From assembly GCA_030651305.1 (NCBI GenBank), contig JAUSCI010000046.1, forward strand, positions 186,001 through 250,000: DNA of 64,000 nucleotides, written 5' to 3'. The notes beneath the pieces are model-generated. The model was not told the origin of the DNA. It saw only the letters and a list, made by a program, of their open reading frames with translations, and did no database searches. Shown here piece by piece: positions 22,662 to 25,494 of the stretch. The stretch is from Sulfuritalea sp. (lineage in GTDB: Bacteria; Pseudomonadota; Gammaproteobacteria; Burkholderiales; Rhodocyclaceae). Every line of letters starts with the position of its first letter. The stretch's first letter is position 1. Position numbers and translations under genes: made by a program.

Positions 22662-22752
22662 GGTAGGGCTCCTTTGCGTATTGTTGACTTGACGCAGATG
22701 ATACCGGAAGCGGCGGCGGCCACCGGGTTGTCGCGATGGAAATGGCTCACTG

Positions 22753-22780
22753 TTGACCGCAAGTCGCGCAGGTCCATAAT
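22753..22780 (+). promoter_or_regulatory. Promoter of the caspase-Bug fusion gene
   Basis: TTGACC (22753-22758) and CATAAT (22775-22780) are spaced by 16 bp. The predicted transcript starts near 22787, leaving a 22-nt leader with AGAGGA before ATG 22809. This supports 22809 as start even though the frame is open for a further 740 bp upstream. Confidence 0.6.
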
Positions 22781-22808
22781 TGACACTTCATCTATCAGAG
22801 GATCCGCG

Positions 22809-25313
22809 ATGCCGTTCCGGTTTTTCCTGGCTTCGCTGTTCGCACTTGCGCTTGGCCTGCTGCCGGCCTTTCCAGCACTGCCGCAGACCGGTCAGCGCGC
22901 GGTTGCCGCGCAGCCCGCCAAGACTGACGGCAGGCGTATTGCTCTGGTGATCGGCAACGGCGATTACCAGTACCCTGACAACCTGCCCAAGCTGCCCAAC
23001 CCGACCAACGATGCGCAGGATATTGCCGAGGCCCTGCGCGGATTTGGTTTTGAAGTCATCGAGCGCAAGAACCAGACGCTCGAAGCCATGAACCAGACCA
23101 TCGCCGAATTCGGCAGCCGCATCGGCGGCAGCGAAGCGGCGCTGTTCTACTTTGCCGGGCACGGCATCCAGGTCAAGAACCAGAATTACCTGATGCCGGT
23201 GAATGCCAAGATCGACAGCGAAGCCGCCGTGCCCTATCAGGGCGTCGACATGAACCGGATCCTCGACGAAATGGACAACGCCAGGAGCGCCGTCAACATC
23301 GTCATGCTCGATGCCTGCCGCAACAATCCGATCAGCGGCAAATTCCGCTCCGGCAAATCGCGCGGTCTGGCCAGCCCGGGCAGCGCGCCGCAAGGCACCG
23401 TCATCGTCTATGCCACCGATCCGGGCAACGTCGCCGCCGATGGCGAAGGCCGCAACGGACTGTTTTCGGCCGGACTGCTGAACGCCTTCAAAGGCGGGGA
23501 TTTGAGCCTCGACGGCGTCCTCACGACAGCGAGCGAGTACGTCGAACAGAAGAGCGTCGAAAGCGATCCGACGCGGAAGCAGACGCCCTACGTCAATGGC
23601 CCGAAGACGGTACAGAAGAACTTTCATTTCCGCGTCACCGTCGATCCCGGCCGCGGCGAGATTGAAAAGACCTTCTGGACCAGCATCGAGCGCAGCACCG
23701 ATGCAACCGACTTCGAAGCCTATCTGCGCAAGTACCCCAAAGGCAGCTACCGGGCGCTGGCGGAGAACCAGCTCAGGCGCCTGAAAGCCAGCCAGCCGGC
23801 CGCGCCAAGACCGGCGGCAGTCGCCGTGCCGCCAGGGCCGACTTCTGCGCCCATGACCAGCGCAGACCCCGAAACCCAGTTCTGGAACGAAGTGAAAACC
23901 AGCGGCGCGCGGGACTACTTCGACATCTATCTCAAGCAATATCCGAAAGGCAAGTACGTCGCGCTGGCAAAGTTCGAACTCAAGAAGCTGGATGATCAGG
24001 ACAAGGCCGAGCAGGCACGGCAAGCCGCGGAGAAGGAGCAGGCCGCCCAGCGCGCCGAACAGGCAGCGTGGGACGCCGCCAAAGCCGGCACCAGCGCAGC
24101 GGCCTACGCGAGTTATCTGGACCACTACCCCAGCGGCCGCTATGCGGCACTGGCGCGGTCGGCCCAGCAGAGGTTGCTGCGCGAAGAGGACGCGCAATGG
24201 AAGACGGCACTTGACACCGCGACGCGGCCCGCGATGCAGACCTACCTGGCAAAGTACCCGAGCGGCCGCTACGTGGCGCAGGCCAGACAGAAGGAAAAGG
24301 ACTACCAGCCCGTCCCACCCCGGCCACCAGTCCCCGCAGCAACTCTAGCGATGGCGCCGGCCACCTACATCGCCGCCCGTCCGGCGGAAATTCCCGCGAC
24401 GAGTGTCAGCGGTTACCCGAACAAGCCGCTGCGGATCATCGTGCCCTTTGCCCCCGGCGGGGCCAGCGACATTGTTGCCCGTGTGCTGTCCCAAGCGCTG
24501 GCGCAACACCTGGGCCAAGCGGTCATCGTGGAGAACCGTCCCGGTGCCGGCGGCATGATCGGCGTCGACGCTGCTGCCAAGTCCGCGCCCGATGGCTACA
24601 CCATGCTCCTCGGCAGTTCGGCGAACATTTCGATTGGTCCGCAGCTGTACCGCAACATGCCGGTGAACGTCGCCACCGATCTGCTGCCGGTTGCCGTGCT
24701 TACCAATGCATCGCTGCTGCTCACGGTACATCCAGGTGTTCCAGTCAGAAGTGCAAGCGAGGTGATCGCCTATGCCAAGGCCAATCCCGAATTGCTAACC
24801 TATGCGACGTCCGGAGTAGGAAGCAGTTCCCATCTCGCGGCGGTGGCCTTCGAAACAGAAGCGGGTATCCAGATGACACACGTGCCCTACAAAGGCATGG
24901 CTCCAGCGATCGTCGATCTGCTGGGCGGCCGGGTGAGTCTTGCCTTCCTCGATCCTGCCTCGGCCGCAAGCCATGTCAAAACGGGCAAGCTGCGCGCCCT
25001 GGCCGTCACCGGGGACCGACGGCAGATTGAACTTCCCGACCTTCCCACCTTCGCCGAGCAGGGCATGCCCCGAGTGCATTTCACTCCGTGGAACGGCATT
25101 TTCGTTCCGGCGGGAACACCGGCGGCCATCGTGCGCCATCTCAATGCCGAAGTGCGCCGAGCCATGCAGCAGCCGGATCTCGTTGATGTGCTGGCACGTG
25201 GTTCGGTACAGGCTGCCCCCGGCGGGAGCAGCGAGGATTTCGCCGCTTTCGTGCGCGACGACACGGCCCGCATGGCACGCTGGATCAAGGCCGGCAACAT
25301 CCGGATCGACTAG
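22809..25313 (+). CDS. Secreted caspase-like (metacaspase) protein fused to a Bug/TctC receptor domain
   Basis: This 834-residue protein has a signal peptide (about residues 1-24) and a peptidase C14 caspase-like domain from RRIALVIGNGDY (42-53), with catalytic His118 in FAGHGIQ and Cys170 in MLDACRNNP. Four repeats with a YL..YP.G.Y core follow (near 305, 374, 436, 479; e.g. AYLRKYPKGSY) with charged linkers. From about residue 536 it is a complete Bug receptor (TctC family) domain: YPNKPLRIIVPFAPGGASDI, VIVENRPGAGGMIGVDAAAK, APDGYTMLLG, MTHVPYKG, ending AGNIRID. Bug proteins normally are separate periplasmic receptors of about 300 residues with their own signal peptide. Here there is none before the domain, so one export signal serves both. 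Its own promoter lies upstream. The domain calls are firm; the joint function is unknown. Confidence 0.92.
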   Translation: MPFRFFLASLFALALGLLPAFPALPQTGQRAVAAQPAKTDGRRIALVIGNGDYQYPDNLPKLPNPTNDAQDIAEALRGFGFEVIERKNQTLEAMNQTIAEFGSRIGGSEAALFYFAGHGIQVKNQNYLMPVNAKIDSEAAVPYQGVDMNRILDEMDNARSAVNIVMLDACRNNPISGKFRSGKSRGLASPGSAPQGTVIVYATDPGNVAADGEGRNGLFSAGLLNAFKGGDLSLDGVLTTASEYVEQKSVESDPTRKQTPYVNGPKTVQKNFHFRVTVDPGRGEIEKTFWTSIERSTDATDFEAYLRKYPKGSYRALAENQLRRLKASQPAAPRPAAVAVPPGPTSAPMTSADPETQFWNEVKTSGARDYFDIYLKQYPKGKYVALAKFELKKLDDQDKAEQARQAAEKEQAAQRAEQAAWDAAKAGTSAAAYASYLDHYPSGRYAALARSAQQRLLREEDAQWKTALDTATRPAMQTYLAKYPSGRYVAQARQKEKDYQPVPPRPPVPAATLAMAPATYIAARPAEIPATSVSGYPNKPLRIIVPFAPGGASDIVARVLSQALAQHLGQAVIVENRPGAGGMIGVDAAAKSAPDGYTMLLGSSANISIGPQLYRNMPVNVATDLLPVAVLTNASLLLTVHPGVPVRSASEVIAYAKANPELLTYATSGVGSSSHLAAVAFETEAGIQMTHVPYKGMAPAIVDLLGGRVSLAFLDPASAASHVKTGKLRALAVTGDRRQIELPDLPTFAEQGMPRVHFTPWNGIFVPAGTPAAIVRHLNAEVRRAMQQPDLVDVLARGSVQAAPGGSSEDFAAFVRDDTARMARWIKAGNIRID

Positions 25314-25382
25314 CGCGCCACCCCAGGCCGGGGACGGAAACCCTGTAAAATCTTCGCTTCCGCGAATTTCCGGGGTTTCCCG

Positions 25383-25442
25383 ATGAAGAAACAAACGACG
25401 TTTAGTTCCGACGTCACGCGCGCAGGCGCGCATGAGTCATGA
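25383..25442 (+). CDS. Possible 19-residue leader peptide before glyQ
   Basis: The first unit of the duplication encodes [19 protein letters not shown] and stops with a TGA that overlaps the glyQ ATG (ATGA). Its sequence nearly repeats the GlyQ N terminus [19 protein letters not shown]. No clear ribosome-binding site precedes either ATG. It may be an accident of the duplication or may couple translation of glyQ. There is no run of glycine codons to suggest classical attenuation. Confidence 0.35.
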
Positions 25443-25494
25443 GCCAAAAACCCACTTTTAGTTCCGACATCACGCGCGCAGGCGCGCATGAGTC
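25383..25494 (+). repeat. 56-bp tandem duplication at the glyQ start
   Basis: Bases 25383-25438 and 25439-25494 are two adjacent 56-bp units, both beginning ATGA and ending CATGAGTC, with 48 of 56 positions identical; the last 38 differ at one base. Each contains the self-complementary GCGCGCAGGCGCGC. Because 56 is not a multiple of three, the first copy cannot be read through into glyQ in frame. Confidence 0.85.

Follow-up and report, generated by a model that had tools for sequence, protein, structure and literature searches.

A single-frame fusion of a caspase-type protease to a Bug solute receptor in Sulfuritalea, most likely a secreted protease with a sensing or recruiting module

Architecture of the fusion gene and its locus

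The window analysed here is a stretch of 64,000 nucleotides from contig 20 of a 3.9-Mb Sulfuritalea genome (G000), a draft of 82 contigs. Translation of the window revealed an open frame of 834 amino acids on the forward strand, running from an ATG at 22809 to a TAG at 25313 (22809-25313, stop included). A caspase domain of the Peptidase C14 family (PF00656; E = 1.4e-34) occupied residues 42–264 (22932-23600) and scored 120.2 bits against a curated cut-off of 21.4. It displayed a catalytic-type dyad of His118 (23160-23162; motif AGHG) and Cys170 (23316-23318; motif LDACRNN), the latter being the sole cysteine of the protein, and equivalents of both residues were present in the aligned copies from four further genomes that carry the fusion (G181, G328, G270, G398). 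The score against the NCBIfam family of EACC1-associated caspases (NF047832) was 74.4 bits, below the curated cut-off of 140, and the protein was not assigned to that family. The caspase domain is followed by a helical repeat arm (residues 282–500; 23652-24308) with exactly four YP.G.Y motifs at residues 309, 378, 440 and 483, a linker (residues 504–532; 24318-24404) predicted to be disordered (pLDDT < 50), and a Bug receptor domain (residues 536–834; 24414-25310). The last of these matched TctC (PF03401; E = 3.6e-74; 250.2 bits against a cut-off of 27) over residues 556–830, covering profile positions 1–273 of 274. A Pfam scan of the whole protein at E ≤ 1 returned nothing beyond Peptidase_C14 and TctC. 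A preliminary description, made from the letters of the DNA alone, had read one frame with a complete C14 domain, four YP.G.Y repeats and a full-length Bug receptor, and translation, Pfam and motifs bear out that reading.

The N-terminus was the most hydrophobic 19-residue stretch of the protein (mean hydropathy 2.08 at residue 6), and hydropathy together with reading delimited a signal-peptide-like segment of approximately residues 1–26 (22809-22886). The best hydrophobic stretch outside residues 1–40 (1.54 at residue 622) falls inside the Bug domain, so no hydrophobic segment separates the two halves. As had been proposed, no export signal of the Bug domain's own was found by hydropathy, and the N-terminus is the only export-type candidate before it. 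Upstream of the gene, a consensus scan identified a sigma-70-like promoter on the forward strand (TTGACC, a 16-base spacer and CATAAT; 22753-22780), and a ribosome-binding-site-like AGAGGA (22797-22802, forward strand) was read six bases 5' of the ATG. The promoter and ribosome-binding site claimed in the preliminary description held up in part: TTGAC and CATAAT were unchanged in all five fusion loci and AGAGG was kept in three (G000, G181, G328), but it was absent in G270 and G398, sigma-70-like sites were by number not above chance (one found against 0.6 ± 0.9 expected), and G181 has ATA (L009 1592-1594) at the homologous start where the others have ATG, the upstream AGAGG being kept.

An AlphaFold2 model built from 49 sequences had a mean pLDDT of 77.7 and a pTM of 0.46. 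The caspase domain was mostly predicted at pLDDT 67–88 with loops below 50 (low-confidence loops at residues 173–186 and 204–214), the helices of the repeat arm mostly at 75–95 with a low-confidence gap at 331–349, and the Bug domain mostly near or above 90. Prediction of the full structure, which had been suggested earlier, therefore yielded the individual domains but no arrangement of them with confidence. By Foldseek the caspase part matched MALT1 and the Bug part resembled the open forms of TBP and TphC (TMt 0.96–0.98, 37–39% identity). Asp68 aligns with a MALT1 residue which we take to be the arginine-holding aspartate of the S1 pocket and which would favour basic substrates; a literature search on MALT1 D365, with most subscription papers outside its reach, returned nothing.

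All five fusions sit downstream of lnt and a reverse-strand orf104. In G000, G181 and G328 the next gene is glyQ; a rhodanese-like gene separates the two in G270, and the G398 contig ends within the fusion. A survey of 30 glyQ loci from 30 genomes of the genus (the G398 locus not being among them) included four from fusion genomes; in 12 others orf104 lies about 0.3 kb or less from glyQ, leaving too little space for such a gene, and in five a rhodanese-like gene, a sensor kinase or an ABC ATPase was read in its place, while seven were not resolved by script and two were cut by contig ends. Because the contents differ among these loci, the orf104–glyQ interval (22662-25438 of the window) is considered a variable insertion site. 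In the window, a tandem duplication of the glyQ start (25383-25494) comprises two imperfect copies of about 55 bases each, and a second short match to the glyQ start was also seen in G242 and G378.

Distribution and descent of the fusion

C14 and Bug domains were found in one protein in five of the 31 genomes of the genus examined (G000, G181, G328, G270, G398). This is the domain-architecture search that the preliminary description had called for, and the two halves are thus not always separate genes in relatives of the window protein. Among the best 80 of 509 relatives, a full-length copy on a G181 contig (L009) had a best segment 75% identical over residues 1–834, and a copy from G328 (L010) was cut by the contig end at residue 543. 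The G328 gene extends across two contigs that end within it and overlap with identical sequence, and in G398 the contig stops near residue 820, inside the Bug domain. A misassembly or the accidental joining of two neighbouring genes has a negligible probability as an explanation: the window does come from an 82-contig draft, and the G328 gene is divided between contigs, but the junction is uninterrupted and the linker similar in G000, G181, G270 and G398, genomes that differ by 22–34% in the Bug domain and have two different caspases. The single-frame fusion of caspase and Bug is therefore genuine, as the preliminary description had maintained.

In a family sample of 395 genomes (23 of the genus, G000 included), no Bug fusion outside the genus was present among the matches followed, and the caspase motif occurred in none of seven long frames with Bug matches among those listed. 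A wider caspase search (E ≤ 1e-30) in an order sample of 399 genomes, a class sample of 369 genomes and other loci collected gave 131 distinct caspase frames among the matches fetched, cut copies counted. Of these 131 frames, only the Bug fusions and one DctP fusion (G008) included a segment resembling Bug or DctP (phmmer, E ≤ 1e-8); other receptor families were sought by reading C-termini and in the Pfam-scanned proteins. Matches were obtained in 1,082 plasmid records, none of which covers 80% of the fusion protein, the ten listed covering residues 468–834 or less.

The caspase segments of the five fusions fall into two types. Those of type A (G000, G181, G328) were 92–97% identical to each other and those of type B (G270, G398) 92%, compared to only 37–38% between the types. 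Elsewhere types A and B were clearly homologous, with 50–72% identity over residues 1–40, 61–81% over the linker and 66–78% over the Bug domain. The repeats also varied, with four YP.G.Y motifs in G000, a G181 copy that is without the stretch holding the fourth, and a single motif in type B. In a Bug tree of 220 rows the five fused Bug domains formed one clade (SH-aLRT 99 by a quick method; FastTree 0.998), whereas in a caspase tree of 77 rows the fusion caspases fell into two well separated clades; the bootstrap of that tree had not converged, and the program flagged long branches that come together. One Bug clade combined with two distant caspase clades indicates that the caspase was exchanged while the pairing was kept, and the simplest reading of these sequences is that the Bug fusion arose once and that one line subsequently received a different caspase-plus-repeat segment in place of the original. 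The dN/dS ratios were 0.03–0.09 for the caspase within types and 0.06–0.35 for Bug over the computable pairs, rough values given that NG86 and YN00 differ, that YN00 values cover part of the pairs and that dS ranged from 0.24 to about 2.4. Both halves look to be under purifying selection, with Bug apparently less constrained than the caspase. A pseudogene or a decaying half was ruled out by these ratios and the intact domains.

C-terminal modules, ligand pocket and transporter genes

The type-A clade of the 77-row tree contained 13 distinct caspase domains with seven kinds of C-terminus. Bug was present in three (in one a contig end cuts the gene before the domain, with the rest on a second contig), four shared an alike C-terminal domain that has no Pfam match above cut-off, two had a DUF3108-like part below cut-off, one had a short Cys-containing tail, and DctP (E = 9.4e-46), cyclophilin (E = 7.2e-48) and Lcl_C (E = 9.9e-11) occurred once each. 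Two further relatives from another order (G1018), 63 and 67% identical and outside the tree, carry FGE-sulfatase and Lcl_C; more distant caspases carry FGE-sulfatase (by Pfam) and parts resembling MORN, WD40, PDZ and Sel1 (by reading only). Most C-terminal modules of the related caspases are not receptors. This variety suggests a common design among these proteins, in which an exported caspase and its repeat arm carry a C-terminal module that can be swapped.

The DctP fusion (G008, L160:3214-6081, forward strand) comes from one genome, the sole member of its genus examined, and joins a caspase of the same clade and a repeat arm to a complete TRAP-type receptor, of a family unrelated to Bug. 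Its DctP part was closest to two TRAP receptors, 4yzz and 4yic; next came 2hzk and 7ug8, which were deposited as sorbitol/mannitol- and ketoacid-binding proteins. Judged by sequence, a solute receptor is thus the C-terminal module in two genera.

Other caspase genes of unusual composition were observed. The cyclophilin fusion (L013:5860-7653, forward strand), on the same contig as L097 of G270, consists of a repeat-bearing type-A caspase followed by a peptidyl-prolyl isomerase of the cyclophilin type, and adjoins two free cyclophilin-like genes. A frame on contig 47 of G000 (L001:1-2337, forward strand) holds two proteases, with PDZ, peptidase S41 (E = 6.6e-52) and C14 (E = 3.8e-47) domains, and a caspase homologue of G136 (L103:1330-3003) has a C-terminus that scores above cut-off against Pfam models of the Tudor and Agenet types. 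Caspase homologues are numerous in the genus: G000 has ten C14 matches, and in G069 three lie next to one another (contig 1, 574238-578975).

The putative ligand pocket of the fused Bug domain was compared with the terephthalate-contacting residues of TphC (PMC8556258). Aligned to 7ndr, F30, G34 and D37 of TphC correspond to identical residues in the window protein and T155 is replaced, by Ala in one fusion and by Ser in the other four. All five fusions have Asp or Glu in place of N197 and Pro in place of T242; Pro occurs at the latter position in 0.9% of 215 other Bugs. With the frame residues retained and N197 and T242 replaced, the predicted pocket appears to be kept while its specificity should differ, and the two positions that differ from TphC in every fusion mean that binding of a small molecule is not assured. 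Loss of a transporter-docking surface was considered and is not used as an argument, as the four of 46 family-conserved positions lost in all fusions are not exceptional (0–4 lost in 37 control clades, partly nested, with a median of 1 and two reaching 4).

The fused Bug was the only TctC match in each of the five fusion genomes, and TctA (PF01970) was found in none of them (drafts, 74–99% complete; the search covered TctA and TctC). The same search in another genome of the genus (G339) returned two TctA and four free TctC genes. Estimated completeness was 97.6% for G000, 99% for G181, 85% for G328, 90% for G270 and 74% for G398, so the absence of TctA rests mainly on the two most complete genomes. 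As the pairing has been kept in several related species in which no importer was found, Bug may sense a small molecule for the protease. This missing-partner argument does not apply to the DctP fusion, because G008 has TRAP transporters.

Possible roles of the fused receptor

The fusion protein is most likely a protease of the caspase type that is secreted and whose carboxylate-receptor module serves in sensing or recruitment. In this reading a helical repeat arm followed by a flexible linker connects the cysteine protease to the Bug receptor within a single exported chain, which probably works in the periplasm. The Bug domain would bind a small carboxylate-type molecule and its change from open to closed would alter the action of the protease, with closed Bug docking onto the caspase or the repeat arm, or recruiting a partner or substrate. 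An analogy may be drawn with Bordetella pertussis, where the TctC receptor BctC, when loaded with citrate, acts on the sensor kinase BctE (PMC5812351, PMC9602780). This is a precedent for a TctC-type receptor as a signalling part, although BctC is not fused to another protein and has a transporter of its own, and the receptor of the fusion is part of a protease. The preliminary description had proposed a ligand-gated sensor-protease: a non-transport role is backed by the lack of TctA and of any other TctC in all five genomes, but gating of the protease by ligand is what we infer, and the disordered linker and the low confidence in the domain arrangement leave that part of the claim conjectural. 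With a linker predicted to be disordered and a pTM of 0.46, a rigid switch or lever is disfavoured by the model, and docking, recruitment or self-processing is favoured. We consider ligand-dependent control or recruitment of the protease by Bug to have close to an even chance, and because the tether is predicted to be flexible, tethering and release by self-cleavage are kept as live rivals.

The strongest of these rivals, which we regard as rather unlikely, is that Bug is a targeting or substrate-holding module that brings the caspase close to a surface or protein bearing the ligand, while the activity of the caspase is controlled by something else. The many kinds of C-terminal module in the caspase clade, most of them not receptors, are consistent with such a tether, as is the predicted linker with no fixed arrangement of the domains. 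However, Bug is complete with most pocket-frame residues kept, and a second genus carries another solute receptor, which would be surprising if the module served only as an anchor. Caspase homologues are known to process themselves, and the protein could cut itself in the loops after Cys170 or in the linker, freeing Bug as the product that matters. The low-confidence loops at residues 173–186 and 204–214 and the disordered linker of the model could accommodate this, but a cleavage site cannot be shown from sequence and a freed Bug has no known partner, since TctA was not found, making such release improbable. Continued service in uptake, with Bug passing its solute to a transporter of another family, is less probable still: TRAP transporter subunits exist in the fusion genomes (DctM matches in G000, G181 and G270), but TctA is missing from all five and a fusion to a protease and repeat arm would be needless for uptake.

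The fusion shares the C14 His-Cys dyad, the N-terminal export-type segment and modular accessory domains with bacterial caspase homologues (metacaspase/orthocaspase-like), but its accessory domain is a transport receptor. A survey of such homologues with accessory domains comprised 671 proteins with 71 Pfam domain types (PMC3501461), and in its main text, figures aside, the words TctC and Bug do not appear. Bug/TctC receptors of tripartite tricarboxylate transporters, of which TBP (8hk9, 8hka) and TphC (7ndr) are the nearest solved, share the fold, the length and most of the ligand-pocket frame; the fused receptor differs in standing behind a protease with no export signal of its own seen and no TctA found in the genome, and from TphC in the two replaced positions. 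The DctP fusion has the same caspase clade, repeat arm and C-terminal placement of a solute receptor but a receptor of the TRAP family in a genome with TRAP transporters. A literature search, with most subscription papers outside its reach and so no proof of novelty, found no description of a caspase fused to a TctC receptor or, among the titles listed, to a DctP receptor, and, within the same reach, none of metacaspases in Rhodocyclaceae or of periplasmic orthocaspases. More tentatively, bacteria may have joined a caspase-type protease to a transport receptor at least twice (Bug in one genus, DctP in another), creating exported one-protein sensors that would turn a periplasmic small carboxylate directly into proteolysis with no transporter, kinase or transcription step.

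The fusion gene points to a candidate input for a bacterial caspase homologue, namely the small molecule that its receptor, whose fold is known, would bind; the natural variants with an exchanged caspase provide built-in controls. If the ligand controls the protease, extracytoplasmic sensing would here take a form different from the kinases and chemoreceptors that solute receptors usually drive, and the fusion would be a natural model of a ligand-switched protease.
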